Of a DNA stretch of 64,000 bases, positions 10,209 through 43,800 are shown piece after piece. The stretch covers positions 1,665,436 through 1,729,435 of the forward strand of contig OX422183.1 in NCBI GenBank assembly GCA_949130485.1, read 5' to 3'. Under the pieces are notes generated by a model. That model saw only the letters and a program-made list of their open reading frames with translations. It did not search any database and had not been told where the DNA came from. Position numbers and translations under genes: made by a program. Position 1 is the first letter of the stretch. Each line of letters starts with the position of its first letter. The stretch comes from Agelas oroides (lineage: Eukaryota > Porifera > Demospongiae > Agelasida > Agelasidae).

Positions 10209-10256
10209 CAGCAGCATACTGACATAACAATGGGCAATGGGGAGTCATCTGAGAAG
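10209..10256 (+). CDS. Candidate first coding exon: MGNGESSEK (coding 10230-10256)
   Basis: An acceptor-like TTTACTTTCTAG ends at 10208. The exon then has 21 bases of 5' leader and an ATG at 10230 in a good context (ACAATGG). It encodes MGNGESSEK and stops at a donor (GAGAAG followed by GTGTGT) after a complete codon (phase 0). An in-frame stop at 10206 shows that the frame does not extend upstream. Gly2 and Ser6 fit an N-myristoylation signal (MGxxxS), which would anchor the product to membranes. I infer that this is the start of the Roc-COR-death-domain gene. Joined to the 19-nt exon at 26932 and the Roc exon at 28607 it stays in frame, and the microexon array lies in the intron between. 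Without transcripts this link is unproven; unspliced, the frame would end after 24 codons. Confidence 0.5.
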
Positions 10257-11284: not shown

Positions 11285-14200
11285 AAATTCCCTTCTTATT
11301 CCCTTCTCGCCTCCCCCACTTCTCTTTTCCACTTCTCTTTTCCTCCCATGTCCCACTCACTTCCATCCCATGTCTAACATTTTTTGACCTCACTGTCACA
11401 ATACCATCCATATCAGCAAACAAACCTGATATGCAATAGATCAGTGAGCATGATAACACACAGCTAGTGTGTGACAAACAATGGTATGCATAAATTTAAC
11501 ACGACAATCTTTTGCTGGTCTTGTCATATTGTAGACCTTCATTAGTATAATTTCTGTAAGGAGGTTACATAATAATGCTGTTTCACTTGGTTATCTTCTT
11601 TCCCCACATGCACTGTTGCATTCACTCCTACTCAGGAGGTAAGTTGACTATTGGAATGATAAATGTGCACATTGTCATACAGTTCCACTCATAGGCAAAC
11701 ATGCATGATTTAGTACGAAACTGTGTCACATGCTGGTCCCCCTTTCTCCCCTTCTTATTCCTTCCTCCCACCCCCCCACTTCTGTTTCCCTCCCATGTCC
11801 AACCCTCTTCCCTGTCTTGTCTAAGATCTTTTTGCCCTCACTGTCACAATACCATCCATATCAGCAAACAAGCAAGATATGCAATAGATCAGTGAGCATA
11901 TAACACACAGCTAGTGTGTGACAAACAATGGTATGCATAAATTTAACACGACAACCTTTTGCTGGTCTTGTCATATTGTAGACCTTCATTAGTATAATTT
12001 CTGTACGGAGGTTACATAATAATGCTGTTTCACTTGGTTATCTTCTTTCCCCACATGCACTGTTGCATTCACTCCTACTCAGGAGGTAAGTTGACTATTG
12101 GAATGATAGATGTGCACATTGTCATACAGTTCCACTTATAGGCAAACATGCATGATTTAGTAAGAAACTGTGTCACATGCCGTTCCCCTTTCTCCCCTTA
12201 TTCCTTCTCTCCCACCCCCCACTTCTGTTTCCCTCCCATATCCAACCCTCTTCCCTGTCTTGTCTAAGATCTTTTTGACCTCACTGTCATAATACCATCT
12301 ATATCAGCAAACAAGCCAGATATGCAATAGATCAGTGAGCAGATAGCACAAAGCTAGTATGTGACAAACAATGGTATACATAAATTTAACAAGACAATCT
12401 TTTGCTGGTTTTGTCATATTGTAGACCTTCATTAGTATAATTTCTGTAAGGAGGTTACATAATAATGCTGTTTCACTTGGTTATCTTCTTTCCCCACATG
12501 CACTGTTGCATTCACTCCTACTCAGGAGGTAAGTTAACTATTGGAATGATAGATGTGCACATTGTCATACAGTTCCACTCATAGGCAAACATGCATGATT
12601 TAGTAAGAAACTGTGTCACATGCTGGTCCCCCTTTCTTATTCCTTTCTTCCAACCCCCCACTTCTGTTTCCCTCCCATGTCCAACCCTCTTCCCTGTCTT
12701 GTCTAAGATCTTTTTGCCCTCACTGTCACAATACCATCCATATCAGCAAACAAGCAAGATATGCAATAGATCAGTGAGCATATAACACACAGCTAGTGTG
12801 TGACAAACAATGGTATGCATAAATTTAACACGACAACCTTTTGCTGGTCTTGTCATATTGTAGACCTTCATTAGTATAATTTCTGTACGGAGGTTACATA
12901 ATAATGCTGTTTCACTTGGTTATCTTCTTTCCCCACATGCACTGTTGCATTCACTCCTACTCAGGAGGTAAGTTGACTATTGGAATGATAGATGTGCACA
13001 TTGTCATACAGTTCCACTTATAGGCAAACATGCATGATTTAGTAAGAAACTGTGTCACATGCCGTTCCCCTTTCTCCCCTTATTCCTTCTCTCCCATCCT
13101 CCACTTCTGTTTACCTCCCATGTCCAACCCACTTCCATATCCTGTCTAACATTGTTTGACCTCACTGTCACAACACCACCCATATCAGTAAACAAGCAAG
13201 ATAAGCAATAGATCAGTGAGCATATAACACACAGCTAGTGTGTGATAAACAATGGTATGCATAAATTTAACATGACAATCTTTTGCTGGTCTTGTCATAT
13301 TGTAGACCTTCATTAGTATAATTGCTGTAAGGAGGTTACATAATAATGCTGTTTCACTTGGTTATCTTCTTTCCCCACATGCACTGTTGCATTCCCTCCT
13401 ACTCAGATTGTAAGTTGACTATTGAAATGATAGATGTGCACATTGTCATACAGTTCCACTCATAGGCAAACATGCATGATTTAGTAAGAAACTGTGTAAC
13501 ATGCCGTTCCCCCTTTTCTCCCCTTCTTGTTCCTTCTCTCCCACCCCCCACTTCTGTTTCCCTCCCATGTCCAACCCTCTTCCCTGTCTTGCCTAAGATC
13601 TTTTAGACCTCACTGTCATAATACCATCCATATCAGCAAACAAGCAAGATATGCAATAGATCAGTGAGCATATAACACACAGCTAGTGTGTGACAAACAA
13701 TGGTATGCATAAATTTAACACGACAACCTTTTGCTGGTCTTGTCATATTGTAGACCTTCATTAGTATAATTTCTGTACGGAGGTTACATAATAATGCTGT
13801 TTCACTTGGTTATCTTCTTTCCCCACATGCACTGTTGCATTCACTCCTACTCAGGAGGTAAGTTGACTATTGGAATGATAGATGTGCACATTGTCATACA
13901 GTTCCACTTATAGGCAAACATGCATGATTTAGTAAGAAACTGTGTCACATGCCGTTCCCCTTTCTCCCCTTATTCCTTCTCTCCCACACCCCACTTCTGT
14001 TTCCCTCCCATATCCAACCCTCTTCCCTGTCTTGTCTAAGATCTTTTTGACCTCACTGTCATAATACCATCTATATCAGCAAACAAGCCAGATATGCAAT
14101 AGATCAGTGATCATGATAACACAAAGCTAGTATGTGACAAACAATGGTATACATAAATTTAACAAGACAATCTTTTGCTGGTTTTGTCATATTGTAGACC

Positions 14201-17200
14201 TTCATTAGTATAATTTCTGTAAGGAGGTTACATGATAATGCTGTTTCACTTGGTTATCTTCTTTCCCCACATGCACTGTTGCATTCACTCCTACTCAGGA
14301 GGTAAGTTAACTATTGGAATGATAGATGTGCACATTGTCATACAGTTCCACTCATAGGCAAACATGCATGATTTAGTAAGAAACTGTGTCACATGCTGGT
14401 CCCCCTTTCTTATTCCTTTCTTCCAACCCCCCACTTCTGTTTCCCTCCCATGTCCAACCCTCTTCCCTGTCTTGTCTAAGATCTTTTTGCCCTCACTGTC
14501 ACAATACCATCCATATCAGCAAACAAGCAAGATATGCAATAGATCAGTGAGCATATAACACACAGCTAGTGTGTGACAAACAATGGTATGCATAAATTTA
14601 ACACGACAACCTTTTGCTGGTCTTGTCATATTGTAGACCTTCATTAGTATAATTTCTGTAAGGAGGGTACATAATAATGCTGTTTCACTTGGTTATCTTC
14701 TTTCCCCACATGCACTGTTGCATTCACTCCTACTCAGATGGTAAGTTGACTATTGGAATGATAAATGTGCACATTGTCATACAGTTCCACTCATAGGCAA
14801 ACATGCATGATTTAGTAAGAAACTGTGTCACATGCTGGTCCCCCTTTCTCCCCTTCTTATTCCTTCCTCCCACCCCCCCACTTCTGTTTCCCTCCCATGT
14901 CCAACCCTCTTCCCTGTCTTGTCTAAGATCTTTTTGCCCTCACTGTCACAATACCATCCATATCAGCAAACAAGCAAGATATGCAATAGATCAGTGAGCA
15001 TATAACACACAGCTAGTGTGTGACAAACAATGGTATGCATAAATTTAACACGACAACCTTTTGCTGGTCTTGTCATATTGTAGACCTTCATTAGTATAAT
15101 TTCTGTACGGAGGTTACATAATAATGCTGTTTCACTTGGTTATCTTCTTTCCCCACATGCACTGTTGCATTCGCTCCTACTCAGGAGGTAAGTTGACTAT
15201 TGGAATGATAGATGTGCACATTGTCATACAGTTCCACTTATAGGCAAACATGCATGATTTAGTAAGAAACTGTGTCACATGCCGTTCCCCTTTCTCCCCT
15301 TATTCCTTCTCTCCCACCCCCCACTTCTGTTTCCCTCCCATATCCAACCCTCTTCCCTGTCTTGTCTAAGATCTTTTTGACCTCACTGTCATAATACCAT
15401 CTATATCAGCAAACAAGCCAGATATGCAATCGATCAGTGATCATGATAACACACAGCTAGTATGTGACAAACAATGGTATACATAAATTTAACAAGACAA
15501 TCTTTTGCTGGTTTTGTCATATTGTAGACCTTCATTAGTATAATTTCTGTAAGGAGGTTACATAATAATGCTGTTTCACTTGGTTATCTTCTTTCCCCAC
15601 ATGCACTGTTGCATTCACTCCTACTCAGGAGGTAAGTTAACTATTGGAATGATAGATGTGCACATTGTCATACAGTTCCACTCATAGGCAAACATGCATG
15701 ATTTAGTAAGAAACTGTGTCACATGCTGGTCCCCCTTTCTTATTCCTTTCTTCCAACCCCCCACTTCTGTTTCCCTCCCATGTCCAACCCTCTTCCCTGT
15801 CTTGTCTAAGATCTTTTTGCCCTCACTGTCACAATACCATCCATATCAGCAAACAAGCAAGATATGCAATAGATCAGTGAGCATATAACACACAGCTAGT
15901 GTGTGACAAACAATGGTATGCATAAATTTAACACGACAACCTTTTGCTGGTCTTGTCATATTGTAGACCTTCATTAGTATAATTTCTGTACGGAGGTTAC
16001 ATAATAATGCTGTTTCACTTGGTTATCTTCTTTCCCCACATGCACTGTTGCATTCACTCCTACTCAGGCGGTAAGTTGACTATTGGAATGATAGATGTGC
16101 ACATTGTCATACAGTTCCACTTATAGGCAAACATGCATGATTTAGTAAGAAACTGTGTCACATGCCGTTCCCCTTTCTCCCCTTATTCCTTCTCTCCCAT
16201 CCTCCACTTCTGTTTACCTCCCATGTCCAAACTTCTTCCATATCCTGTCTAACATTGTTTGACCTCACTGTCACAACACCACCCATATCAGTAAACAAGC
16301 CAGATATGCAATAGATCAGTGAGCATATAACACACAGCTAGTGTGTGACAAACAACGGTATGCATAAATTTAACACGACAAACTTTTGCTGGTCTTGTCA
16401 TATTGTAGACCTTCATTAGTATAATTTCTGTACGGAGGTTACATAATAATGCTGTTTCACTTGGTTATCTTCTTTCCCCACATGCACTGTTGCATTCACT
16501 CCTACTCAGGCGGTAAGTTAACTATTGGAATGATAGATGTGCACATTGTCATACAGTTCCACTCATAGGCAAACATGCATGATTTAGTAAGAAACTGTGT
16601 AACATGCCGTTCCCCCTTTTCTCCCCTTCTTGTTCCTTCTCTCCCACCCCCCACTTCTGTTTCCCTCCCATGTCCAACCCTCTTCCCTGTCTTGTCTAAG
16701 ATCTTTTAGACCTCACTGTCATAATACCATCTATATCAGCAAACAAACCTGATATGCAATAGATCAGTGAGCATGATAACACACAGCTAGTGTGTGACAA
16801 ACAATGGTATGCATAAATTTAACATGACAATCTTTTGCTGGTCTTGTCATATTGTAGACCTTCATTAGTATAATTTCTGTAAGGAGGTTACATAATAATG
16901 CTGTTTCACTTGGTTATCTTCTTTCCCCACATGCACTGTTGTATTCCCTCCTACTCAGATGGTAAGTTGACTATTGGAATGATAGATGTGCACATTGTCA
17001 TACAGTTCCACTCATGGGCTAACATGCATGATTTAATAAGAAACTGTGTCACATGCTGTTCCCCCTTTCTCTCCTTCTTATTCCTTCCTCCCACCCCCCC
17101 ACTTCTGTTTCCCTCGCATGTCCAACCCTCTTCCCTGTCTTGTCTAATATCTTTTTGACCTCACTGTCACAATACCATCCATATCAGTAAACAATCCAGA

Positions 17201-19274
17201 TATGCAATACATCAGTGAGCAGATAACACACAGCTAGTGTGTGACAAACAGTGGTATGCATAAATTTAACAAGACAATCTTTTGCTGGTCTTGTCATATT
17301 GTAGTCTTTCATTAGTATAATTTCTGTAAGGAGGTTACATAATAATGCTGTTTCACTTGGTTATCTTCTTTCCCCACATGCACTGTTGCATTCACTCCTA
17401 CTCAGCGGGTAAGTTGACTATTGGAATGATAGATGTGCACATTGTCATACAGTTCCACTCATAGGCAAACATGCATGATTTAGTAAGAAACTGTGTCACA
17501 TGCCGTCCATGAATGTAGATACTTTTCTCATTTCTTCCCTTCTTATTCTCTCTCTCCCATCCCCCACTTCTGTTTACCTCCCATGTCCAACCCACTTCCA
17601 TGTCCTGTCTAACATTGTTTGACCTCACTGTCACAACACCACCCATATCAGTAAACAAGCCAGATAAGCAATAGATCAGTGAGCATGATAACACACAGCT
17701 AGTGTGTGATAAACAATGGTATGCATAAATTTAACAAGACAATCTTTTGCTGGTCTTGTCATATTGTAGACCTTCATTAGTATAATTTCTGTAAGGAGGG
17801 TACATAATAATGCTGTTTCACTTGGTTATCTTCTTTCCCCACATGCACTGTTGCATTCACTCCTACTCAGGTGGTAAGTTGACTATTGGAATGATAGATG
17901 TGCACATTGTCATACAGTTCCACTCATAGGCAAACATGCATGATTTAGTAAGAAACTGTGTCACATGCTGGTCCCCCTTTCTTATTCCTTCCTCCCACCC
18001 CCCCACTTCTGTTTCCCTCCCATGTCCAACCCTCTCCCTGTCTTGTCTAAGATCTTTTTGCCCTCGCTGTCACAATACCATCCATATCAGCAAACAAGCA
18101 AGATATGCAATAGATCAGTGAGCATATAACACACAGCTAGTGTGTGACAAACAATGGTATGCATAAATTTAACACGACAACCTTTTGCTGGTCTTGTCAT
18201 ATTGTAGACCTTCATTAGTATAATTTCTGTACGGAGGTTACATAATAATGCTGTTTCACTTGGTTATCTTCTTTCCCCACATGCACTGTTGCATTCGCTC
18301 CTACTCAGGTGGTAAGTTAACTATTGGAATGATAGATGTGCACATTGTCATACAGTTCCACTCATAGGCAAACATGCATGATTTAGTAAGAAACTGTGTC
18401 ACATGCTGGTCCCCCTTTCTTATTCCTTCCTCCCACCCCCCCACTTCTGTTTCCCTCCCATGTCCAACTCACTTCCATATCCTGTCTAACATTTTTTGAC
18501 CTCACTGTCACAACACCACCCATATCAGTAAACAAGCCAGATAAGCAATAGATCAGTGAGCATGATAACACACAGCTAGTGTGTGATAAACAATGGTATG
18601 CATAAATTTAACATGACAATCTTTTGCTGGTCTTGTCATATTGTAGACCTTCATTAGTATAATTTCTGTAAGGAGGTTACATAATAATGCTGTTTCACTT
18701 GGTTATCTTCTTTCCCCACATGCACTGTTGCATTCACTCCTACTCAGGGGGTAAGTTGACTATTGGAATGATAGATGTGCACATTGTCCTACAGTTCCAC
18801 TCATGGGCTAACATGCATGATTTAATAAGAAACTGTGTCACATGCCGTTCCCCCTTTCTCTCCTTCTTATCCCTTCTCTCCCACCCCCCCTCTTCTGTTT
18901 CCCTCCCATGTCCAACCCTCTTCCCTGTCTTGTCTAATATCTTTTTGACCTCACTGTCACAATACCATCCATATCAGTAAACAATCCAGATATGCAATAG
19001 ATCAGTGAGCGGATAACACACAGCTAGTGTGTGACAAACAATGGTATGCATAAATTTAACAACACAATCTTTTGCTGGTCTTGTCATATTGTAGACCTTC
19101 ATTAGTATAATTTCTGTAAGGAGGTTACATAATAATGCTGTTTCACTTGGTTATCTTCTTTCCCCACATGCACTGTTGCATTCACTCCTACTCAGTGGGT
19201 AAGTTGACTATTGCAATGATAGATGTGCACATTGTCATACAGTTCCACTCATAGGCAAAGATGCATGATTTAGT

Positions 19275-19721
19275 TAGCCTCGTTCCCAGGCCCGCGCCCA
19301 GCTTCCCGTCGCTTGCAGTACGGTTAAGCGGGAGAGGGCCTGGTACATTTTCTCACGTGAGTGACGTCACGGACAGGGAAAATTATGCGAACGTGGGCGT
19401 CATGTAAACCACAAAAATATTCGCTCGCACGCACCTTGAGCGCGACTATTCCGAGTCGAAATATAGCAGCGCACGAAGGCGCTTTTATGACGCTATTCAC
19501 GAGACAGTCTGGAGGACAGAGAGTTTTACCAAGCCAAAACAGTGAACACACACACCAGCAATCAGTTAGCAATTTAGTCGTGCTCGCCCACGTTCAATTA
19601 AAGTCTTTCTACCGCCTTTCTACCCTTGACGTCACTCACGTGAGAAAATGTACCAGGCCCTCTCCCGCTTAACCGTACTGCAAGCGACGGGAAGCTGGGC
19701 GCGGGCCTGGGAACGAGGCTA
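19275..19721. mobile_element. Mutator-like MITE inserted in the cassette array
   Basis: The inverted ends TAGCCTCGTTCCCAGGCCC and GGGAACGAGGCTA extend inward for about 95 nearly perfect bases (GCTTCCCGTCGCTTGCAGTA, TTTTCTCACGTGAGTGACGT). A 9-bp duplication TGATTTAGT (19266-19274 and 19722-19730) is exact and comes from the cassette's own GATTTAGTAAG motif. The insertion therefore happened after the array formed. It lies about 80 bp downstream of a TGG microexon (19196) and leaves it intact. No protein is encoded. Confidence 0.92.
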
Positions 19722-20219
19722 TGATTTAGTAAGAAACTGTGTCACATGCTGGTCCCCCTTTCTTATTCCTTCCTCCCACCCCCCCACTTCTGTTTCCCTC
19801 CCATGTCCAACCCACTTCCATGTCCTGTCTAACATTGTTTGACCTCAATGTCACAACACCACCCATATCAGTAAACAAGCCAGATAAGCAATAGATCAGT
19901 GAGAATGATAACACACAGCTAGTGTGTGATAAACAATGGTATGCATAAATTTAACACGACAATCTTTTGCTGGTCTTGTCATATTGTAGACCTTCATTAG
20001 TATAATTTCTGTACGGAGGTTACATAATAATGCTGTTTCACTTGGTTATCTTCTTTCCCCACATGCTCTGTTGCATTCACTCCTACTCAGGAGGTAAGTT
20101 AACTATTGGAATGATAGATGTGCACATTGTCCTACAGTTCCACTCATGGGCTAACATGCATGATTTAATAAGAAACTGTGTCACATGCCGTTCCCCCTTT
20201 CTCTCCTTATTCCTTCTCT

Positions 20220-20240
20220 CCCCCCCCCCCCCCCCCCCCC
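20220..20240. repeat. Poly-C tract in a cassette
   Basis: About 20 consecutive C residues replace the usual CCCACCCCCC segment of the cassette's pyrimidine tract. A similar poly-C run lies at about 28472-28491 in the intron before the Roc exon. Both are places where assembly length could be wrong. Confidence 0.85.
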
Positions 20241-23200
20241 ACTTCTGTTTCCCTCGCATGTCCAACCCTTTTCCCTGTCTTGTCTAAGATCTTTTTGACC
20301 TCACTGTCACAATACCATCCATATCAGCAAACAAGCCAGATATGCAATAGATCAGTGAGCAGATAGCACAAAGCTAGTGTGTGATAATCAATGGTATGCA
20401 TAAATTTAACAAGACAATCTTTTGCTGGTCTTGTCGTATTGTAGACCTTCATTAGTATAATTTCTGTAAGGAGGTTACATAATAATGCTGTTTCACTTGG
20501 TTATCTTCTTTCCCCACATGCACTGTTGCATTCACTCCTACTCAGGAGGTAAGTTGACTTTTGGAATGATAGATGTGCACATTGTCATACAGTTCCACTC
20601 ATAGGCAAGCATTCATGATTTAGTAAGAAACTGTGTCACATGCCGTCCATGAATGTAGATACTTTTCTCATTTCTTCCCTTCTTATTCTCTCTCTCCCAT
20701 CCCCCACTTCTGTTTACCTCCCATGTCCAACCCACTTCCATGTCCTGTCTAACATTGTTTGACCTCACTGTCACAACACCACCCATATCAGTAAACAAGC
20801 CAGATAAGCAATAGATCAGTGAGCATGATAACACACAGCTAGTGTGTGATAAACAATGGTATGCATAAATTTAACAAGACAATCTTTTGCTGGTCTTGTC
20901 ATATTGTAGACCTTCATTAGTATAATTTCTGTAAGGAGGTTACATAATAATGCTGTTTCACTTGGTTATCTTCTTTCCCCACATGCACTGTTGCATTCAC
21001 TCCTACTCAGGATGTAAGTTAACTATTGGAATGATAGATGTGCACATTGTCATACAGTTCCACTCATAGGCAAACATGCATGATTTAGTAAGAAACTGTG
21101 TCACATGCTGGTCCCCCTTTCTCCCCTTCTTATTCCTTCCTCCCACCCCCCCACTTCTGTTTCCCTCCCATGTCCAACCCTCTTCCCTGTCTTGTCTAAG
21201 ATCTTTCTGCCCTCACTGTCACAATACCATCCATATCAGCAAACAAGCAAGATATGCAATAGATCAGTGAGCATATAACACACAGCTAGTGTGTGACAAA
21301 CAATGGTATGCATAAATTTAACACGACAACATTTTGCTGGTCTTGTCATATTGTAGACCTTCATTAGTATAATTTCTGTAAGGAGGTTACATAATAATGC
21401 TGTTTCACTTGGTTATCTTCTTTCCCCACATGCACTGTTGCATTCACTCCTACTCAGTGGGTAAGTTAACTATTGGAATGATAGATGTGCACATTGTCAT
21501 ACAGTTCCACTCATAGGCAAACATGCATGATTTAGTAAGAAACTGTGTCACATGCTGGTCCCCCTTTCTCCCCTTCTTATTCCTTCCTCCCACCCCCCCA
21601 CTTCTGTTTCCCTCCCATGTCCAACCCTCTTCCCTGTCTTGTCTAAGATCTTTTTGCCCTCACTGTCACAATACCATCCATATCAATAAACAAGCCAGAT
21701 ATGCAATAGATCAGTGAGCATGATAACACACAGCTAGTGTGTGACAAACAATGGTATGCATAAATTTAACACGACAACATTTTGCTGGTCTTGTCATATT
21801 GTAGATCTTCATTAGTATCATTTCTGTGAGGAGGTTACATAAAAACGCTGTTTCACTTGGTTATCTTCTTTCCCCACATGCACTGTTGCATTCACTCCTA
21901 CTCAGGTGGTAAGTTAACTATTGGAATGATAGATGTGCACATTGTCATACAGTTCGACTCATAGGCAAACATGCATGATTTAGTAAGAAACTGTGTCACA
22001 TGATGGTCCCCCTTTCTCCCCTTCTTATTCCTTCCTCCCACCCCCCACTTCTGTTTCCCTCACATGTCTAACCCTCTTCCCTGTCTTGTCTAAGATCTTT
22101 TTGCCCTCACTGTCACAATACCATCCATATCAGCAAACAAGCAAGATATGCAATAGATCAGTGAGCATATAACACATAGCTAGTGTGTGACAAACAATGG
22201 TATTCATAAATTTAACACGACAACCTTTTGCTGGTCTTGTCATATTGTAGACCTTCATTAGTATCATTTCTGTGAGGAGGTTACATAAAAACGCTGTTTC
22301 ACTTGGTTATCTTCTTTCCCCACATGCACTGTTGCATTCACTCCTACTCAGTGGGTAAGTTGACTATTGGAATGATAGATGTGCACATTGTCATACAGTT
22401 CCACTATAGGCAAACATGCATGATTTAGTAAGAAACTCTGTCACATGCAATCCATGAAGGTAGATACTTTCCTCATTTCTTTCCTTCTTATTCCCCTTCA
22501 CCCATCCCCCACTCCTCTTTCCCTCCCATGTCAAACCCACTTCCATGTCCTGTCTAACATTGTTTGACCTCACTGTCACAATACCACCCATATCAGCAAA
22601 CAAGCCAGATATGCAATAGGTCAGTGAGCATGATAACACACAGCTAGTGTGTGACAAACAATGGTATTCATAAATTTAACACGACAACCTTTTGCTGGTC
22701 TTGTCATATTGTAGTCTTTCATTAGTATAATTTCTGTAAGGAGGTTACATAATAATGCTGTTTCACTTGGTTATCTTCTTTCCCCACATGCACTGTTGCA
22801 TTCACTCCTACTCAGTGGGTAAGTTGACTATTGGAATGATAGATGTGCACATTGTCATACAGTTCCACTATAGGCAAACATGCATGATTTAGTAAGAAAC
22901 TCTGTCACATGCAATCCATGAAGGTAGATCCTTTCCTCATTTCTTTCCTTCTTATTCTCTCTCTCCCATCCCCCACTTCTGTTTACCTCCCATGTCCAAC
23001 CCACTTCCATGTCCTGTCTAACATTGTTTGACCTCACTGTCACAACACCACCCATATCAGTAAACAAGCCAGATAAGCAATAGATCAGTGAGCGTGATAA
23101 CACACAGCTAGTGTGTGATAAACAATGGTATGCATAAATTTAACACGACAATCTTTTGCTGGTCTTGTCATATTGTAGTCCTTCATTAGTATAATTTCTG

Positions 23201-24037
23201 TAAGGAGGTTACATAATAATGCTGTTTCACTTGGTTATCTTCTTTCCCCACATGCACTGTTGCATTCACTCCTACTCAGCGGGTAAGTTGACTATTGGAA
23301 TGATAGATGTGTACATTGTCATACAGTTCCACTCATAGGCAAACATGCATGATTTAGTAAGAAACTGTGTCACATGCAGTCCATGAAGCTAGATACTTTC
23401 CCCGTTTCTTCCCTTCTTATTCTCTCTCTCCCATCCCCCACTTCTGTTTCCCTCCCATGTCCAACTCACTTCCATGTCCTATCTAACATTGTTTGACCTC
23501 ACTGTCACAATACCACCCATATCAGCAAACAAGCCAGATATGCAATAGATCAGTGAGCATGATAACACACAGCTAGTGTGTGATAAACAATGGTATGCAT
23601 AAATTTAACACGACAGTCTTTTGCTGTACTTGTCATATTGTAGACCGTCATTAGTATAATTTCTGTACGGAGGTTACATAATAATGCTGTTTCACTTGGT
23701 TATCTTCTTTCCCCACATGCACTGTTGCATTCACTCCTACTCAGCGGGTAAGTTGACTATTGGAATGATAGATGTGCACATTGTCATACTGTTCCACTTA
23801 TAGGCAAACATGCATGATTTAGTAAGAAACTGTGTCACTGCCATTCCCCTTTCTCCTTCTCTCCCACCCCCACTTCTGTTTCCCTCCCATGTCCAACCCT
23901 GTTCCCTGTCTTGTCTAAGATCTTTTTGACCTCACTGTCACAATACCACCCATATCAGCAAACAAGCCAGATATGCAATAGATCAGTGAGCATGATAACA
24001 CAAAGCTAGTGTGTGACAAACAATGGTATGCATAAAT

Positions 24038-25599
24038 GATCGTCTCTAATCGCTGTACTGGATTGTGGACTGGATCGCTGGACTGGACTGCTGGACTGGA
24101 TTACTGGACTGACCTTTGAACTAAAATTGTGTGTATCACATGACATCCACCCAATCAGATGTGCTGAATTGGGTCACATGTTCGATGCTTAGCGGCTAAT
24201 AGATTGCCGAGAAACAAAGGACGCGGCATGCAGCAACTGTGGGAGTTTTGTGCCTAAGAGACCTTGAAAGGTATGCATATACTACGGCAGATGGAGCAGC
24301 TTGGTAGGACAATTGGCACAATAATCTATTCCAAGGCCTCTCGCTGACCAAGCATAGTTTTTACATGGCTACATTCAACAAGACTGTGGGTATTACATAG
24401 CCTGGTAGCCACTAACCAGTATAGCATTTGACACCAGCGATCTCCATGACACTCCGGCAGTACATTGTTTTTAGTAAAGAGGCCTTTGTCAGTACTTTTG
24501 ATGATCTTTTGCACGCTTGCTATAGTCAGAGGGTGCTTTTAGCTCACTGCGTGTACACCATGAATTCATGATGCATATCTGTCCATGTAGTTTGTGCATT
24601 GTGCGCTCATGTACATTCCCTAGCATGCAGTGGGAAGATGAGGCCACTCCAAGTTGATTCATTGTTTCCCATTACACTGGAAACTTGAGGACATGCGGGC
24701 AGGCGGTTCACTATTCATTATTCATTACCAGAGGCTATGACCCAGCTAGGCGGGGTGTGATGTTAGACACGAAGAAATCGATGAACGAATGCTCTTCATC
24801 TGCCACGGCAGCATCGTACATTTGGTTCACACAGAGTAAACGCAACACTGTAAAAACATTTAGGTTACTTCAACCATATTTCGGTTATCTCAGTTGCATG
24901 TGTGTGGTGTACACATCATGAATTTCAAGGAATGCTTCCAAACAGAAGAGCTTGAAATCAAAATGTTGAGAAGCGCTTCTCTTTTAATTAAACCCAGTCT
25001 TCTTTTCAGAACTCAACACCTATCAATTATCATTTCTGGAAAAGGTTTGGTTGCATACTTATGGTAAATGCCAGTAATGTAGCCAAATAGGATTTCTGAT
25101 AGAAAAAACTAATTTAACTAAAGAAGAAGTTCTTGGATGGAATTTCAAGAAACCTTTTTAGAAGCATTCCTGAGACTTCTGATAATGATACCACTCTGGT
25201 GCAACTGAGATAACCTATAAAGATGCTTAAAGTAACCTAATTTTTTTATGCAGTGAAACGTTTATAATCGTGCCGGCCATTCGAAATCAATCATCGAGCA
25301 CAGGACTTCGACAGTTCATGACAGTTGTGGGCAAGCACGTGGTCGGTAAGTTGTTCACGTGATCTGCAGCACCATCAATAATGATAAACGTGTACATAAT
25401 GCATAAAATAGATGTGGGTGGGAAATGGGAAACAATGAATTAATTTGGAATGGCCTGAAGTGCAGTTACTGTAACCAAATTTATGACATTTGATTGGATG
25501 GAGGTCATGTGATATGAACAAATTAAGTCCAGTAATCCAGTCCATCAGTCCAGTCCAGCAATCCAGTCCACAATCCAGTCCAGTGATTAGATACGACCT
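24038..25599. mobile_element. hAT-like non-autonomous element interrupting the last cassette
   Basis: The element splits a cassette exactly at GCATAAAT, which is duplicated on both sides (24030-24037 and 25600-25607). An 8-bp target duplication is the hAT hallmark. The ends are inverted: GATCGTCTCTAATC on the left matches the complement of GATTAGATACGACCT on the right. Both ends are followed by several TGGACTGGAT copies, as expected for subterminal transposase-binding repeats. The roughly 1.4-kb interior has no recognisable transposase. The segment near 24640 (AGGCCACTCCAAGTTGATTC) is related to one near 61345. Confidence 0.88.
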
Positions 25600-26050
25600 G
25601 CATAAATTTAACACGACAATCTTTTGCTGGTCTTGTCATATTGTAGTCCTTCATTAGTATAATTTCTGTAAGGAGGTTACATAATAATGCTGTTTCACTT
25701 GGTTATCTTCTTTCCCCACATGCACTGTTCCATTCACTCCTACTCAGTTGGTAAGTTGACTATTGCATGTACACGTCATACAATGGCACTCGTAGACAAA
25801 CATGCAAGGTTTAGTAAGATATATGCCGTCCATGTAGGTACATACCTCTCCCCATCCTTTCTCTTTTTATTCCTCTTCTCCTTTTCCCTTTCTCTCCCAT
25901 TACCCTCCCTATTTTGTTCTGTAATGTTCTACGACCCCGCTGTCACAAGAGATTATAATGCCCCACATATTGGCAGACAAGCCAGACATGCACTAGAACA
26001 GTGGTTTACTCCGAGTGCGGTAACACACAACTAGTGTATGTGATAAACAG
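25600..26050 (+). repeat. Terminal, half-diverged cassette
   Basis: This is the remainder of the unit split by the hAT element. From 25600 to about 25764, including the acceptor, TTG triplet and donor, it is nearly identical to the other cassettes. Downstream of about 25765 it is strongly diverged, although ACATGCAAGGTTTAGTAAG, a C/T-rich tract and ACACACAACTAGTGTATG can still be aligned. The array ends here. Confidence 0.85.
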
Positions 26051-26636: not shown

Positions 26637-26931
26637 GTGTTTACACGTGTCAAAGTGTTTCTTTACTGAAAGCGTTACTGATCAATCTATCCAAGCATTC
26701 ACTGACAATGCAAGGGAAATATATGTCTGGTGCTGAAAGCGAAAGAAAACAAAACAGCATGAAGATGCAGCCCAGAAAGGTAAAATAAAAAAACCTCATG
26801 GGGCCCCTTTTCAGGAAAAAGTTTGGGGTTCCCGGAGAACTATCCCCTGCTCCCCCACCCTGTCGGTAGGCCTGAACAACTTCACTCCTACTTAATCCAC
26901 TGGTATTCCACTACCTTCTTGATAGGAACAG

Positions 26932-26950
26932 CGAGAGAAGAAGATGAAAG
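26932..26950 (+). CDS. Candidate 19-nt exon (REKKMK + 1 nt) of the Roc-COR gene
   Basis: The acceptor CTACCTTCTTGATAGGAACAG is followed by 19 bases and a strong donor (GAAAG followed by GTGAAG). Read in phase 0 it encodes REKKMK plus one G. Joined to the Roc exon at 28607 (starting AT) that G makes Asp, giving REKKMKDYQEALKLGKLL, a continuous charged helix leading into the GTPase domain. The phases fit both neighbours: phase 0 from the first coding exon or any 3-nt microexon, and phase 1 into the Roc exon. It is short, so chance is possible. The support is the phase match, the splice signals and the plausible peptide. Confidence 0.5.
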
Positions 26951-28606: not shown

Positions 28607-31600
28607 ATTATCAAGAAGCTTTGAAACTTGGCAAGTTGTTGGTAGCTTACGCACGAGTGATGATGGTTGGTCCAGGAGGTGTTGGCAAGAGCAGTCTTCT
28701 TAGGGGACTCATGAACCAGAGTCTACCTCAAGATGCTGAGAGTACTATTCTTGCAGACACTAAGGTAGTCAAACGACAGTTTTGGGCCAAACCAGGAATG
28801 TCTGCTGACAGCTACTGGGCTGAAGTCACTGATCAAGATGAAATTGAAGAACTGGCCGGACTGTTCCAGCTAGTACTATCAAAATTACATCCATCTAAAG
28901 TGGCTACAGATAATCAAACTGGACTGTTCCAGCTAATACAATCAAAATTACGTCAATCTAATCTGGCTAAAGTTAATCAAACAGTGGTTGCATCTGCTGC
29001 TGTTGGTGAGTTTGGCCCACAAGGATACAAACCACAAAGAATTCAAACCATCAATGATGAGTATGTGTCCAGTATCAAGGACAGTGATGTTCGAAGTGTG
29101 CTCCAACAGGTTGCAGAACGTGCATTAAGTCGCTCCAAAGATCAAGCTGTCCCACATACAGAAGTACTGATGCATGTGTGGGATTGTGGTGGCCAACCTG
29201 TCTTCCTTGATGTCCTTCCAGCCTTTCTGACATCCAGGACAATATTCCTTCTCTTCTTTGATGCACGTCAAAATCTACTTGACAAATGCAGATCATTGTC
29301 TCACAAAGCAGGGAGGCTAGTTTCCAAATCTGAACAGAGTTTCACCACACTGCAGCTCCTTACTCAGTGGATGGCCAGCATTCATGCTATGTACATACGA
29401 AAGGATGCAATAGAAAGTGCCAACCAAAAAGCATCCACTACACCATCAGAAGGTGAAAGTCCAGCTACACAAGGAAGGAAAACACATACCTCTGATCCTG
29501 CTCATGATCACAAAGAGCAACAAATTTCTGCCGGAAACCAGCACAATTTTGGGGAGAGCACCGTCCCAAAGTTCCCATGCATTATTCCAGTTGGTACACA
29601 TGGTGATGAAGTACAAGAAAAAGAGAAAATCCTCAGCACCCTCCTATCTCACTGTGAGGTTAAAGCATATGCTCCTCTACTTCTGAACGGTGTCATTGTT
29701 GACAACACCACAGCTGGCCAAGGCAAGGAGTGTGAAGACGAAGGGTTCAGATATATCCGAGAAAGAGTGCATCAATTTGCCTCAAAGCATCTTGCAGTTC
29801 AAACGCCAGTAGCCTGGGTTCTGTTTAGGAAAGTCCTTCAAAAGGTTGCAAAAGGCACCATTGTCTCATATGAGCAAGCAGTTGCAGTAGGACAAGCTTG
29901 TGGGATAGCGGAGGATGTTGTCCCCAGTGTTCTTCATTTCTATCATGAGCTAGCTGTCTTCCTCCACTACACTCAAATTGAGAGCCTCTCCGACAAGGTG
30001 ATTGTTGATCCACAGTGGCTGGTAAGGCAGCTTGGCAGGCTACTAGCACCAGAAGGGTTGGAACAGAAAGTTTCAAGCCAATTGCTTTGGAAACCACTGC
30101 ATGAGAAGGGCATCCTTGTTCAAGCTTTGTATGAAGAAGTTTGGTATGAAAGCAACCTAAAACCACAACCACTTGCTGACCTTCTTGAGCACTTCCTTCT
30201 TGCAGCTGAAATTCATCCTCCAAAATCAGTTACTCCATATGAAGGCCGAAAATACTTTGTCCCCTCTGTTCTGAAGCCCTCAATGCAGGATACTGACAGC
30301 ACGCCTAAATCCAAGGAACCTGTGAAGATGTCTTCTCCTCTTCATCTCACATTCAGCACACAGTATGTACCTCCTGGCTTCTTCACTCGCCTAGCAACTA
30401 CTCTGACAAAGGAACCAAAATGTGAACCACTCTTTGAACACAATGTCTACCGCAACAAGTTAACATTTGCCTATGACCAAATTGATGAATTTACAATCTG
30501 TGAACAGTCCTCAAGTGTGCAAATCAATGTAGTTCGTCGCCAGTCACACAAGATAATGACTTTTGGAAACACTTGCTGTGCTATCATGGAACTAATTCAG
30601 GCATGTTCTACCATAGTTGGTCAATGGCTACCTTCAGTAGAGGTAAAAGCAGCCTTCCTATGTGAAAAGTGTCCAGACTTCATCACCATTCCATGTGGTG
30701 CTGATACAGGTTTAAATGTCTACTGTAAAGCACGTCATCACTGCAATCTCACCAGGGAAAAACAGTACTGGCTGAAAATACCTAGTACTCCAGAGGTTTG
30801 TTGTTTGTGTAGTTGTTATAGGTGTTGGTTTGCACGTTTCTGCTATTGTGATACATCACCAGTGCATAATTATGAGAGAATTATTATGCGCTCCTGTATG
30901 TTTTTGATAGCATTCCAATTTCACTAAACGTATATTTGCTTAAGACTCATCCAAATACATTATAGGGACATATTCATTACGCATATTTTATTTCTGTAGT
31001 GCCTTGCACAGAAGGGTGACCTCAGTGATGCAGAGTTGGAAGGAGTAGCCAATGATATCCAGAAATATGACAAACTAAAACAACTAGCAGATGAATTGGA
31101 AATGGTTCCCCAGCTAGAGTCACTACCACGTGATGTGAATGCCCCACTAACACTACTTCATCGTTGGCGTTATGAGATAAAGAATGGGTTAGAAGCTCAC
31201 TCCTTCTTGGTATATCATCTCAAATGCATTGGATTGCCAGGAACATCTGACAGGTACCATTTGCGTTACAAGATGTACAATCCAACATGTTGACAACTCA
31301 AGATGTGAACCAGATCTAATGATAATTTGTGTCACCTTTATCTCTTTCACAGACTCTATTATCGAGAGTTTCTTTCACCCTCTAAAACGAATCCCACTGC
31401 AGTAAGTCAATATAATAGCACTGTATGTGGTAAAGTATTGCAAAGAACATCCCATGTTCACACTGTAGTTATTTTCTGCAGAGGACATGCTGAGGTAAAT
31501 TAACCATGCAAACATGGAATGTTATAATTCCTCTGATACTTAATGTGAATTCACATATCAAATAATAGTGCATAGTGTCATATTACTGTAGGACCACCAG

Positions 31601-32546
31601 TTTTTGTTCCATAATTGCTGCAATGTTTTTGATATTAGGTTTGAATATTTGGAGGTATGTTGGTTTGTGGGTGTTCATTTACTCAGCTATAACAAAGTGC
31701 CTTCATTCATTCCTGTAGGACAACAATGGAGCTGCAAGAGACGGTGGTCGTGCTTGTGAACTAGTCAGTTCAGTTGACAATACTTCCAGAACAACCAGAG
31801 GTAGTGTTTCCCACTATGATACAGTTGATAGTACTTAAAATTTCAGGGTCAGAATTTTCTTAGTAAATGTGTATAGGCAGTACAGTATCTACACATTTCT
31901 TGCAAATTCGTACTTTTCCTCCTCCCAGGTAAATTGGACCGTTGTCAACCACAGAATTTGAAGTGGGAGAATGTGGATGACACTCCATTAGGCAAGTATA
32001 TATCACATCACATTATATGAAGCAGGCACAGTCCATGAAACTGACTATATAGTGTTCCTGGAGCCACTTCATGTACCAATTATACAATTACAATATGTAT
32101 TGATCATTGTTCTAGTACTACTTCAAATCCCCAGAGATTTTCCCAGTAACTCACCAAGATTATACCTTGGTTACTTCAACTGTGCAAGATGTACTTCTTA
32201 GTTAGGTGCTAATGTGTTGTGCATTGTGTGCATTACAATCTCTATTGTCTCCAACCCTTCAGCGAAAGACTCCTTGAGGACTATTCTAAACAGCATTTCC
32301 ACCCTCACAGCAGAGTGGTTCAAGCTTGGTGTGGCACTTGGACTGTCTTATGACACATTGACAACAATTGAGTCTAACTACCCAAAAGATGCACACAGGT
32401 GTCAGACAGAAATGGTGATGGCATGGTTGCAAATGAAAGATAATTCACAGCCCAGTTGGCAGTCATTAGCTTCCGCTCTAAGTTCACCATCAGTAGGCAG
32501 AATTGAAGTAGCCACTTTGATTGCTGCAGAACACCTGCCACATTAG
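28607..32546 (+). CDS. Roc-COR GTPase with two C-terminal death-fold regions (Roco family)
   Basis: Six exons: 28607-30795, 31000-31253, 31353-31401, 31719-31800, 31929-31991 and 32263-32546 (stop). The phases match throughout. The first exon begins after a clear acceptor with no nearby ATG, so the N terminus lies upstream (probably 10230 and 26932). The Roc domain shows the P-loop GPGGVGKSS (28669-28695), the G3 motif DCGGQ (29182-29196) and GTHGD (29593-29607) at the G4 position. A low-complexity insert (about 29410-29560) precedes G4. The COR domain covers about 29800-30640, followed by a Cys-rich segment (FLCEKCPDF). Exons 2-3 encode a divergent death fold (LSDAELEGVANDIQKYDKLK). The last exon encodes a typical death domain (WFKLGVALGLSYDTLTTIES, CQTEMVMAWLQM, PSWQSLASAL). 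Roco proteins are GTP-regulated dimers, and death domains recruit signalling partners, so a role in innate-immune or cell-death signalling is likely but inferred. Intron 5 uses a GC donor. Confidence 0.9.
28858..28983 (+). repeat. 63-bp in-frame tandem duplication inside the Roc domain
   Basis: 28858-28920 and 28921-28983 are two diverged copies encoding GLFQLVLSKLHPSKVATDNQ and GLFQLIQSKLRQSNLAKVNQ. The duplication lengthens the segment between the P-loop and G3 by 21 residues and keeps the frame. Confidence 0.9.
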
Positions 32547-33225: not shown

Positions 33226-33680
33226 ATTTATGAAGACACTGCGAAAAGTTGAACTTGATGGTAGATACGGCCCCGGGAAGAATGTTGGACAGTCACATCG
33301 TGACGAGCGAGCTAAGTTGTGCGGCCATTACTGCCGTAAGTGTCGAAGTCACGTGGAAATCATGCACTCCGATGTGGCGCTGAGTTCCCGGTAAACTTTA
33401 GAGCAACTGTTCTAAGTGTTATCTAGTGTTTGTTGGCAATGAAAAACCATTTCTTGGATGCAAGATCGGTGCTTGAACTATTCTAGATTAATGCAAGCAC
33501 ATTGAGACGTTCTGAGCCTGACTTACTGTCCATATCAAGGGATCCGAGGTTCCAGACTCTAAAATTGTCCACCTTTTTGACGTATCTTGCCAGTTCATGC
33601 CATCGCAATCGTATATACGAAGGTGTCTAGTCCAAATCGCGGATATAAACTAGCATCACGGTGCCATAGAGATTTATATA

Positions 33681-34400
33681 TTGTACTCATCTAATCTGGA
33701 ACTAGTCATGAAGGGCATAAAGAAAGACAAAGCAAAGTCCACCCAACCTTGTCCCCGGCTTCCAATAACAGTTGAAATCATGGTCAAGCTGAAGAGAGTA
33801 CTCCAGGGCTCCGATAAGGAGCACGACAGCATCATGTTATGGGCCGCCTGCTGTTTAGCCTTTTTTGGCTTCCTACGGTGCGGGGAGTTTACAGTGCCGG
33901 CCCAGGCTACATATGACCCTGAGGAGCACCTCTCAGTAGCTGACATAGCAATTGATAACAGACTCTCCCCATCCGTGATTCAAGTCAAAATCAAACAATC
34001 AAAAACAGACCCATTCCGCCAGGGAGTGCAACTGTACTTGGGTAAGACTGATGAAGTTATTTGCCCCATCACAGGAATTCTACCCTATCTGGCCATTAGG
34101 GGAGCGAAACCTGGACCCCTGTTCATTTTGAAGGATGGCACATACTTGACGCGACAACGATTCGCTGCGCTCTTGTCACACACACTGCTTCAAGCAGGAA
34201 TATCAGACAAGCGCTACACAACCCACAGTTTTCGTATCGGGGCCGCCACCTCCGCTAAGGATTCGGGGATATCTGATGTGCACATAAAAATGCTGGGGCG
34301 CTGGAAGAGCAATGCGTATCAATTGTATGTTCGAACCCCCAAAGAACAACTAGCAAAACTCTCCAAGCAGTTAGTGTCCAGAGACCCAAACACCAAGTAA
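33681..34400 (+). CDS. Tyrosine recombinase catalytic domain of a YR retroelement (5'-truncated)
   Basis: The frame has 239 codons counted from the in-frame TTG at 33681. It can extend only to about 33654, where a stop lies. It shows the tyrosine recombinase signature: Arg66 in FLRCGEF, Lys108 in KQSKTD, His182 and Arg185 in THSFRIG, Trp208 in LGRWKS, and a likely nucleophile Tyr216 in YQLYVR. It cuts and rejoins DNA through a covalent phosphotyrosine. The N-terminal core-binding domain is missing except for its last helix (NLELVMKGIKK), and no ATG start is in place. The gene is therefore 5'-truncated, or its earlier exons are unrecognised. The B1-A2-B2 repeats immediately downstream identify the parent as an Ngaro/PAT-like YR retroelement. 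No reverse transcriptase or RNase H is present in the window. Confidence 0.85.
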   Translation: MYSSNLELVMKGIKKDKAKSTQPCPRLPITVEIMVKLKRVLQGSDKEHDSIMLWAACCLAFFGFLRCGEFTVPAQATYDPEEHLSVADIAIDNRLSPSVIQVKIKQSKTDPFRQGVQLYLGKTDEVICPITGILPYLAIRGAKPGPLFILKDGTYLTRQRFAALLSHTLLQAGISDKRYTTHSFRIGAATSAKDSGISDVHIKMLGRWKSNAYQLYVRTPKEQLAKLSKQLVSRDPNTK

Positions 34401-40131: not shown

Positions 40132-40811
40132 GATGCTACACATAACTTATTCAACATGTCACATTTGTCAAGTCAACCCAATCCAGTGCTACCACAGAAC
40201 AAACACGACACCACTAATCATGTTCTTGAGGACCAATGAACGGAATGTTGCCTAGGGGTGCCACACAGAGCTAGCTAAATTCAACTATTAATATGCATGA
40301 GGGGAGAGATTGCCTGACTTCCACCCGGAATTACACGCCTTTAATGAGATTCATTGATCTCAATTCGGACATTAACAACATCCACAAGTATCTACAGAGG
40401 GTTAATGAGATTCATAGCCCTGTTCTGTTCGGGTTTGGGTCCACCAAAGGCTTAGGTCATACTCATGAATATTCAACATCATTTACCCATTCCTTTCAAC
40501 CCCAAGCCAAGCTGCCAATGCTTCAACAGAAGTTCAATAATGAGGTTCATGAGAGTCAACATACTCTAACCCTCCCATTGGACAGTTGACTGAACCCAGG
40601 GTTGTTCATGGGTAATGCTGAGGTCTAGTTAAAGCCAACTCATTAATATTCATGAGGTGGACAGAAACACCCCAGATTATAGAGCTCTGTCGGGCTTTAA
40701 TTAGATTCATAGGCTCAATTAGGGTTAGGGGGGTTCGGGTTAATGAGATTAGGGTTAGGGATTTTAGGGTTAAGGCAAACTAGGGTTAGGGCTAGGGCTA
40801 GGCTTAGGGTT
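40132..40811. repeat. Spacer unit with telomere-like 3' part (first of 11)
   Basis: The first half has several ATTAATAT(T/G)CATGAG and TTAATGAGATTCAT motifs. The last 100 bp (about 40715-40811) is made of TTAGGG, GCTAGGG and GGGTTAA variants running straight into the next element. It has no protein-coding signature. Confidence 0.85.
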
Positions 40812-43800
40812 TTAAGGTGGCACGGTCGTCCCTCGGCGGAGGTTAACGAAAACATAAACTTGGGTTACAGTTAGGACCAGGGTTACTCCTAGTTTCAGGG
40901 TTAGGGTTTGGTTTAGGGCAATCTTGCTTTGCCTAATTTTAAAAAGGGTTTTAGTAGCTCATTAATATATTCATGAACCCAAAATTGCCACTCGATGGAC
41001 GCATCTACACGCTCACTGTAGGTAGCGTCCCAACCACCAATGTATCTCAAATCAATCTATGCCAGCTTTTGTTCAAAGCTACTCTCAAAGTCAGGCTAGA
41101 CTCATGTTTGTCACTACTCTTGGAATGGACAACTTTGACTGCACCAAAATGAATGCACATTTCGAAAAATTCACAGCTTGTCTACGGGAGGGGCTCATTC
41201 ACGAGTGGAAGCAAGCATTACTAGCCCCACCTCTCCCCCTTATGTCGCTAAACAACTCACGGCTCTGTTCCACACACAGCCACCGTTCAGCTCCCTTGTC
41301 TGTCAGACTGTAGCACAAACGATAAATTGCGTATTCTAGTTAAAGCCCAGCCCAGCACTCGAAGCACCTGGCCACGGTCACCAACTAGACTAGGCATACG
41401 GCCGCGAGACCTGGGCCTACTCAACAAATACAGTCTTGGCCACTGTGGCCTTTCTGCTGCTTCTAGACACAAGCTTGCTTTCACAAGCAGGCATCACGCA
41501 CTACTCACAGCTACTGACACTACAGCACTCTACTAAGCTTATCTTCAAAGTTCCGAGCACCACATGAAGGGTGCCGCCAGGCCACATCTTAACTAACTTA
41601 ATTATAAACTGATTATTGGATGGCAATGCCGACAGGAAATGGGGAAAATCCCCAATTTTACGGACCGTGAACGGTTTGAGACTCCCAAAACGGAATGTGC
41701 ACTAAAATTTTAACAAGACAAAGAAGACTATCAACTTGGACTCCAGGTTTGTTGACCTTGAAAATACAGGGTACCGTGCCACCTTAAGATGCTACACATA
41801 ACTTATTCAACATGTCACATTTGTCAAGTCAACCCAATCCAGTGCTACCACAGAACAAACACGACACCACTAATCATGTTCTTGAGGACCAATGAACGGA
41901 ATGTTGCCTAGGGGTGCCACACAGAGCTAGCTAAATTCAACCTATTAATATGCATGAGGGGAGAGATTGCCTGACTTCCACCCGGAATTACACGCCTTTA
42001 ATGAGATTCATTGATCTCAATTCGGACATTAACAACATCCACAAGTATCTACAGAGGGTTAATGAGATTCATAGCCCTGTTCTGTTCGGGTTTGGGTCCA
42101 CCAAAGGCTTAGGTCATACTCATGAATATTCAACATCATTTACCCATTCCTTTCAACCCCAAGCCAAGCTGCCAATGCTTCAACAGAAGTTCAATAATGA
42201 GGTTCATGAGAGTCAACATACTCTAACCCTCCCATTGGACAGTTGACTGAACCCAGGGTTGTTCATGGGTAATGCTGAGGTCTAGTTAAAGCCAACTCAT
42301 TAATATTCATGAGGTGGACAGAAACACCCCAGATTATAGAGCTCTGTCGGGCTTTAATTAGATTCATAGGCTCAATTAGGGTTAGGGGGGTTCGGGTTAA
42401 TGAGATTAGGGTTAGGGATTTTAGGGTTAAGGCAAACTAGGGTTAGGGCTAGGGCTAGGCTTAGGGTTTTAAGGTGGCACGGTCGTCCCTCGGCGGAGGT
42501 TAACGAAAACATAAACTTGGGTTACAGTTAGGACCAGGGTTACTCCTAGTTTCAGGGTTAGGGTTTGGTTTAGGGCAATCTTGCTTTGCCTAATTTTAAA
42601 AAGGGTTTTAGTAGCTCATTAATATATTCATGAACCCAAAATTGCCACTCGATGGACGCATCTACACGCTCACTGTAGGTAGCGTCCCAACCACCAATGT
42701 ATCTCAAATCAATCTATGCCAGCTTTTGTTCAAAGCTACTCTCAAAGTCAGGCTAGACTCATGTTTGTCACTACTCTTGGAATGGACAACTTTGACTGCA
42801 CCAAAATGAATGCACATTTCGAAAAATTCACAGCTTGTCTACGGGAGGGGCTCATTCACGAGTGGAAGCAAGCATTACTAGCCCCACCTCTCCCCCTTAT
42901 GTCGCTAAACAACTCACGGCTCTGTTCCACACACAGCCACCGTTCAGCTCCCTTGTCTGTCAGACTGTAGCACAAACGATAAATTGCGTATTCTAGTTAA
43001 AGCCCAGCCCAGCACTCGAAGCACCTGGCCACGGTCACCAACTAGACTAGGCATACGGCCGCGAGACCTGGGCCTACTCAACAAATACAGTCTTGGCCAC
43101 TGTGGCCTTTCTGCTGCTTCTAGACACAAGCTTGCTTTCACAAGCAGGCATCACGCACTACTCACAGCTACTGACACTACAGCACTCTACTAAGCTTATC
43201 TTCAAAGTTCCGAGCACCACATGAAGGGTGCCGCCAGGCCACATCTTAACTAACTTAATTATAAACTGATTATTGGATGGCAATGCCGACAGGAAATGGG
43301 GAAAATCCCCAATTTTACGGACCGTGAACGGTTTGAGACTCCCAAAACGGAATGTGCACTAAAATTTTAACAAGACAAAGAAGACTATCAACTTGGACTC
43401 CAGGTTTGTTGACCTTGAAAATACAGGGTACCGTGCCACCTTAAGATGCTACACATAACTTATTCAACATGTCACATTTGTCAAGTCAACCCAATCCAGT
43501 GCTACCACAGAACAAACACGACACCACTAATCATGTTCTTGAGGACCAATGAACGGAATGTTGCCTAGGGGTGCCACACAGAGCTAGCTAAATTCAACCT
43601 ATTAATATGCATGAGGGGAGAGATTGCCTGACTTCCACCCGGAATTACACGCCTTTAATGAGATTCATTGATCTCAATTCGGACATTAACAACATCCACA
43701 AGTATCTACAGAGGGTTAATGAGATTCATAGCCCTGTTCTGTTCGGGTTTGGGTCCACCAAAGGCTTAGGTCATACTCATGAATATTCAACATCATTTAC

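Follow-up and report, generated by a model that had tools for sequence, protein, structure and literature searches.

A tandem array of 28 hypervariable triplets, each set directly between an invariant acceptor and an invariant donor splice signal, lies ahead of the Roc-COR (ROCO) GTPase exon of a gene in the demosponge Agelas oroides, and we consider it probable (a chance of roughly 0.77, judged from the genomic sequence) that each triplet is a complete single-codon exon that is translated, whatever the mode of joining. The window analysed is a stretch of 64,000 nucleotides, positions 1,665,436 to 1,729,435 of the forward strand of contig OX422183.1 (GenBank assembly GCA_949130485.1). Exactly 28 sites of the form CTACTCAG-NNN-GTAAGTT are present in the window by exact pattern count, and this recount bears out the sites, coordinates and ten triplet counts reported in an initial annotation of the same DNA: GAG 10, TGG 4, CGG 3, GTG 3, ATG 2 and GCG 2, with ATT, GGG, GAT and TTG once each. 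The array, as delimited by Tandem Repeats Finder (TRF; period 447, 28.4 copies, 88% matches), and the candidate microexons, each located by an exact pattern match, are as follows.

11329..24037, plus strand, tandem array of units of about 447 bp, the intron being GTAAGTT...CTACTCAG
11636..11638, plus strand, candidate microexon 1, GAG (E)
12083..12085, plus strand, candidate microexon 2, GAG (E)
12526..12528, plus strand, candidate microexon 3, GAG (E)
12965..12967, plus strand, candidate microexon 4, GAG (E)
13407..13409, plus strand, candidate microexon 5, ATT (I)
13855..13857, plus strand, candidate microexon 6, GAG (E)
14299..14301, plus strand, candidate microexon 7, GAG (E)
14738..14740, plus strand, candidate microexon 8, ATG (M)
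15185..15187, plus strand, candidate microexon 9, GAG (E)
15629..15631, plus strand, candidate microexon 10, GAG (E)
16068..16070, plus strand, candidate microexon 11, GCG (A)
16510..16512, plus strand, candidate microexon 12, GCG (A)
16959..16961, plus strand, candidate microexon 13, ATG (M)
17406..17408, plus strand, candidate microexon 14, CGG (R)
17871..17873, plus strand, candidate microexon 15, GTG (V)
18309..18311, plus strand, candidate microexon 16, GTG (V)
18748..18750, plus strand, candidate microexon 17, GGG (G)
19196..19198, plus strand, candidate microexon 18, TGG (W)
20091..20093, plus strand, candidate microexon 19, GAG (E)
20546..20548, plus strand, candidate microexon 20, GAG (E)
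21011..21013, plus strand, candidate microexon 21, GAT (D)
21458..21460, plus strand, candidate microexon 22, TGG (W)
21906..21908, plus strand, candidate microexon 23, GTG (V)
22352..22354, plus strand, candidate microexon 24, TGG (W)
22816..22818, plus strand, candidate microexon 25, TGG (W)
23280..23282, plus strand, candidate microexon 26, CGG (R)
23745..23747, plus strand, candidate microexon 27, CGG (R)
25748..25750, plus strand, candidate microexon 28, TTG (L)

The freedom of the triplet and the fixity of its flanks, claimed at the outset for exact matches, hold equally when no exact core is required. A search by BLAST (basic local alignment search tool) under that relaxed condition gave 256 units in six arrays, of which the 252 fully covered ones (all but one in the window array and three in array D) were used for rates of change: 37-64% of units depart from the array consensus at triplet positions 1 and 2 and 7-62% at position 3, against 0-0.6% of cells for the 15 flanking bases and 1-7% for roughly 100 neighbouring bases. 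No gap was seen near the triplet in these 252 units. In the loci read, the core is 3 nt long in 339 of 339 cores with exact flanks, none being of 0-2 or 4-30 nt, so that splice signals directly adjoin both ends of a very short stretch (TACTCAG/NNN/GTAAGTT, slashes here and below marking exon boundaries), and these acceptor and donor signals rank with the best conserved columns across eight array consensuses, among which unit lengths differ from locus to locus and introns run from 258 to 483 nt.

The predicted coding parts of the gene around the array, together with the Death-domain open reading frame (ORF) that we presume to be its C-terminal exon, are as follows.

10230..10256, plus strand, coding part of exon 1 (MGNGESSEK), from the earliest ATG past an in-frame TAG at 10206 to a phase 0 end at AAG/GTGTGT
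26926..26950, plus strand, exon 2 (EQREKKMK), entered in phase 0 (ATAG/GAACAG) and left in phase 1 (AAAG/GTGAAG)
28607..30924 (the end being the ORF limit), plus strand, exon 3 (DYQEALKLGKLLVAYARVMMVGPGGVGKS...), Roc GTPase and COR-A, from the acceptor TTGCAG/ATTATC, a frame check and Pfam
32202..32543, plus strand, Death-domain ORF, presumed C-terminal exon of the Roc-COR gene (Pfam Death, E=5.8e-7)

The array lies between exons 1 and 2, both in phase 0 on the side facing it, and the junction of the two stays in frame with any number of triplets inserted. Exon 3 continues the frame of exon 2 (...EQREKKMK-DYQEALKLGKLLVAYARVMMVGPGGVGKS) and matches the Pfam families Roc (E=3.1e-11), Ras (1.1e-7) and COR-A (E=3.7e-12), the combination that defines a ROCO protein. 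The initial annotation began exon 2 at 26932, where the AG is present in only 2 of the 6 aligned loci; a start at 26926, with its AG/GAACAG acceptor present in all 6, is more probable, and either start is in frame. Exon 2 and both of its splice sites are found in 6 of the 6 aligned loci, and the homologues of exon 1 at loci A, C and D, which share an identical AG/GTGTGT donor, vary in length by multiples of a codon (exon 1 being found in 4 of the 6 loci). A conserved myristoylation start at MGN was considered and rejected, other loci beginning with MSR or MSD.

The window, which lies on contig C1, is one case of a genome-wide system, and the pattern exceeds chance. In the 141 contigs of the assembly (259 Mb), exact matches to the 18-base pattern number 746 (314 and 432 on the two strands) against 1 for a reversed control, and those to TACTCAG-NNN-GTAAGTT, from which the first C is dropped, number 837 against 2. 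Of the 152 T-class sites, the 100 listed all fall in clusters on C1 that precede Roc genes. A search for relatives with the 777-residue ORF of exon 3, in which 58 of 277 candidates were scored and the counts are therefore lower bounds, gave at least 17 close Roc-COR relatives including the window gene itself, at 64-100% identity (13 on C1, 3 on C9 and 1 on C17); same-strand sites lie upstream in 15 of the 17 listed, the nearest known about 2-21 kb from the Roc match, and some arrays extend much farther upstream, for example at C1:5.87-5.94 Mb. In each of the first six loci fetched, a same-strand array precedes the Roc-COR exon (6 of 6).

The content of the triplets is compatible with a reading as codons. 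The 351 units of ten arrays hold 32 different triplets, which between them encode every amino acid except Cys (19 in all). None is a stop, where about 5.6 stops would be expected among the distinct triplets per array if the columns were independent; genome-wide, TAA and TAG each occur in 0 of 837 matches, and the single TGA belongs to a lone unit on C10. A coding array should be flanked by exons in phase 0 and consist of units without stops, as is seen here, the absence of TAG being partly confounded. We also took each array's distinct triplets and counted how often two have their first two bases in common: over the ten arrays this was so for 0 of 40 fourfold-degenerate codon boxes and 14 of 38 split boxes (Fisher p=9.4e-6, or 5e-7 without the TA and TG boxes), and synonymous pairs inside arrays number 6 where 17.6 (standard deviation 4.0) are expected (P=0.0006). 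G is favoured immediately before the donor, and among units with another last base 85 of 104 encode residues that lack any G-ending codon. When the second base is T the box contrast is 0 of 12 versus 5 of 13 (p=0.039; third-base composition, p=0.066). We regard the code test as supporting, not decisive, because box type follows the second base closely and, where that base is A or C, the two effects cannot be told apart.

A number of observations weigh against the triplets being translated single-codon exons, or lessen the force of the evidence for it. Specifically, i) the box contrast largely tracks the second base (A boxes are all split, C boxes all fourfold), and the contrast is absent where the second base is G (0 of 13 versus 0 of 5; third-base p=0.52); ii) an A in the second position may pair with U1 and so make a last base other than G tolerable, which could give part of the contrast, an account which itself presupposes that the donor is in use; iii) the synonymy test assumes independent columns and is open to the same second-base and splicing confounding; iv) avoidance of an acceptor (YAG) could explain the missing TAG, and CAG is found in 0 of 297 units of the first eight arrays where 23 are expected, yet it occurs in 9 of 837 matches genome-wide, and such avoidance is therefore at most partial (AGN occurs once, on C5); v) units share ancestry by duplication, so that unit counts overstate the independent evidence, and tests on distinct triplets per array correct for this only partly; vi) the relative at C1:8.63 Mb has its only listed site about 103 kb upstream, and the C17 relative has no array within the 10 kb read; vii) for the array at C9:8.67-8.71 Mb the expected side shows no COR match, and this array may belong to another gene family; viii) exon 1 was not found at loci E and F in the 6.4 and 8.9 kb read before the first unit; and ix) the exon 2 peptide is absent before the Roc domain in 122 proteins scanned (120 listed of 704 relatives plus two window sequences), and those of the 120 with residues upstream of Roc look like unspliced genomic ORFs. 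The initial annotation had proposed a candidate single-codon microexon array; the paralogous layout, the fixed length of 3, the lack of TAA and TAG and a partly confounded fit to the code all lend partial support to that idea, with splicing itself and the mode of joining presumed.

If the triplets are exons, then serial joining is the simplest expectation because the splice sites are strong, close together and near-identical, and we rank serial inclusion ahead of the use of variable subsets, with the exclusive choice of one triplet last; the original suggestion of a choice of one among ten residues at a single position is accordingly the less likely mode. Taken by itself, joining in serial order seems to us an evenly balanced proposition. 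The spliceosome would take out the short array introns one by one, joining exon 1 to the first triplet, whose strong GTAAGTT donor would then join the following triplet, and so onward. The product would be a peptide of at most 28 residues between MGNGESSEK and EQREKKMK, reading serially EEEEIEEMEEAAMRVVGWEEDWVWWRRL and lying about 30 residues ahead of the Roc P-loop; the frame would survive the skipping of any unit. Over evolutionary time the peptide could be rewritten as intron-plus-codon cassettes are duplicated, deleted and exchanged, under selection for amino-acid change, and a Death-domain GTPase might use it for specific assembly or recognition.

The statistics of the arrays argue weakly for serial order. 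The C9 array, on the minus strand at about 8.671-8.708 Mb and built of units of about 633-685 nt with introns of about 630-682 nt, reads KPDIQPEILILKDIQPEKIELPLEIPGPIDIPLTPHTPFPLEPSR; nowhere in it do two neighbouring codons coincide (P=0.0017, with no correction for the ten arrays), which favours serial use. By eye the serial readings are peptide-like, with a charged helix-like string at the C1:1.10-Mb gene and a string of spaced prolines at the C9 array. For hydrophobicity autocorrelation, computed over eight arrays (those at C9 8.67-8.71 Mb and C1:5.87 Mb excluded), z is -3.1 for lag 2 and 3.9 for lag 3. As points on the other side, leaving out two block-duplicated arrays weakens these values to -2.8 and 0.9, removing repeats weakens them to -2.3 and 1.9, and three arrays show an excess of identical neighbours.

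The strongest alternative stays within the single-codon-exon reading: one triplet, or a varying subset, would be joined per molecule, giving each gene a repertoire of N-terminal peptides. Every combination is in frame, the near-identical splice sites impose no evident order, redundancy would make skipping tolerable, and the distinct codons of an array mostly give different residues; on the other hand one codon is repeated in many units (the ten GAG of the window), with strong donors and short introns a triplet should tend to join its nearest neighbour, and docking/selector pairing left no sign in 7 of the 8 tests that yielded numbers (all 7 within their four shuffles), while the eighth (upstream of D) lay beyond all four, a weak control (the stretch upstream of A had no window of sufficient length). 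Folded as RNA, eight consensus introns did no better than shuffles (z -0.35 to +1.88). We consider such alternative use doubtful, though a serious competitor. A further step, in which cells join differing in-frame series of exons to place a huge repertoire of N-terminal barcodes on an intracellular Death-domain GTPase for self/non-self or pathogen discrimination, with germline shuffling of the cassettes, is more speculative again.

Far less probable is that the sites are recursive-splicing ratchet points, which only remove a long intron stepwise and carry the triplet incidentally. Tandem acceptor-donor pairs within a 16.7-kb intron are indeed similar, but a ratchet point would show AG adjoining GT, and no such 0-nt site is found among the 339 cores; nor would ratcheting call for a hypervariable triplet between fixed flanks, free of TAA and TAG, or for evenly spaced sites more numerous than stepwise removal needs. 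Somewhat weaker still is an untranslated, satellite-like array of intron copies in which mutation alone diversifies the triplet: tandem arrays evolve fast and unit length does differ between loci, but the very same units combine near-invariant flanks with triplets changed in 37-64%, TAA and TAG are missing, and the frames of exons 1 and 2 are conserved. Weakest of all, and very improbable, is a self-spreading mobile element or introner whose 3-bp target-site duplication is the triplet, since a duplicated target should stay constant in a head-to-tail array and here successive triplets differ, and since the listed T-class sites are all clustered upstream of Roc genes, even if the unit is intron-like (GTAAGTT start, CTACTCAG end) and occurs alone on C10, with lone pattern matches on C6 and C5.

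How the diversity of the triplets may arise is suggested by the block duplications that the arrays hold. With both flanking introns compared, sixty pairs of units differ at 4 or fewer places; array E, of 100 units, supplies 47 of these pairs, array A 9, and arrays D and O 2 each. The triplet differs in 7 of the 60, all 7 in array E; in two array E pairs with one difference per intron the triplets are nonetheless two bases apart (CGG/GAG and CGG/TTG). Such near-identical pairs with unlike triplets could result if units exchange very short tracts, or if selection on the codon is strong.

Among the results inspected from the open-access literature we found no array of single-codon exons, subscription papers and preprints lying outside the search. 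The clusters of arthropod Dscam hold far longer exons, one of which is chosen per cluster through docking/selector pairing; they resemble the present arrays in being homologous, tandemly duplicated and diversifying, and differ in that no clear pairing of this kind was found here (eight tests, four shuffles each). RPS24 reportedly has a 3-bp exon. In brown-algal ROCO genes (Teng et al. 2024, PMC11378527) tandem 72-bp exons in phase 2 each encode one leucine-rich repeat, with exon shuffling, diversifying selection and a proposed role of alternative splicing in immune diversity; the Roc-COR protein class and the tandem in-frame exons are shared, whereas the candidate exons described here are single codons in phase 0 and have a Pfam Death domain downstream of them. 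Schistosome micro-exon genes (PMC10526429) have 10-20 exons per gene, mostly of 15 bp (3-81 or 6-81 bp quoted), and likewise join many short, mostly in-frame exons across much longer introns into variable products; repeated homologous introns and hypervariable triplets, found here, are not described in the accessible part of that source, and here 3-bp exons feed a Roc-COR exon of more than 2 kb, which is not the body of a schistosome-type gene. Ratchet points, with adjoining acceptor and donor, are known from long Drosophila introns (PMC8605326), exons of 1 nt are spliced in plants (PMC8831610), and ultra-short exons of 1 or 3 nt are spliceable (PMC8831610, PMC7821500); the ratchet points and the 1-nt plant exons show that splicing of such tiny exons is feasible. 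These cases (PMC8605326, PMC8831610, PMC7821500) share tandem acceptor-donor pairs and tiny exons with the sponge arrays, but are, as described there, single sites in ordinary genes, in contrast to tens of homologous single-codon exons. None of the exon-array or microexon systems compared here fits the array.

Two spacings in the window array are irregular, one of 895 and one of 2003, the latter containing an insertion, probably a mobile element, whose approximate limits come from the sequence and the TRF rows.

24038..25597 (limits approximate), no strand assigned, insertion in the last array intron

Its ends carry CTGGACT-type repeats in inverted orientation (24052-24111 and 25526-25583), and beyond it the array unit sequence picks up again and runs to microexon 28. 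An Rfam search of the whole window gave no match, nor did a comparison of one array unit with plasmid sequences.

Further along the window, an ORF at 31000-31290, ahead of the Death domain found by Pfam, resembles by eye a second Death-type domain. Just 3′ of the Death-domain ORF, an ORF at 33654-34397 resembles a tyrosine recombinase (Pfam Phage_integrase, E=4.2e-5, under the curated cut-off) and possibly comes from a mobile element. Ten head-to-tail copies of a 1657-bp repeat, 99.9-100% identical to a reference copy, occupy 40301-56870, followed by a partial or diverged copy to about 58100; TTAGGG-like stretches lie inside this repeat. Elsewhere in the genome, the lone unit on C10 (C10:7817423), the sole core in the surrounding 3 kb read and the bearer of the TGA triplet, looks like a relic, and further lone pattern matches occur at C6:1056646 (CCA) and C5:10188487 (AGT). 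COR-A matches number 132 at E<=0.001 genome-wide, some of them below the curated cut-off, with dense clusters on C3 and C20, a count that amounts to a very large ROCO expansion.

We wish to stress what translation of the triplets would mean. A segment of a protein would be encoded at one codon per exon, with tens of kilobases of intron spent on tens of residues; the arrays would set the limit of exon granularity and offer a natural test of the spliceosome on serial 3-nt exons; and the sponge would have a new means of diversifying a receptor-like intracellular GTPase. Similar arrays may exist elsewhere, where ordinary annotation and many aligners would overlook them.

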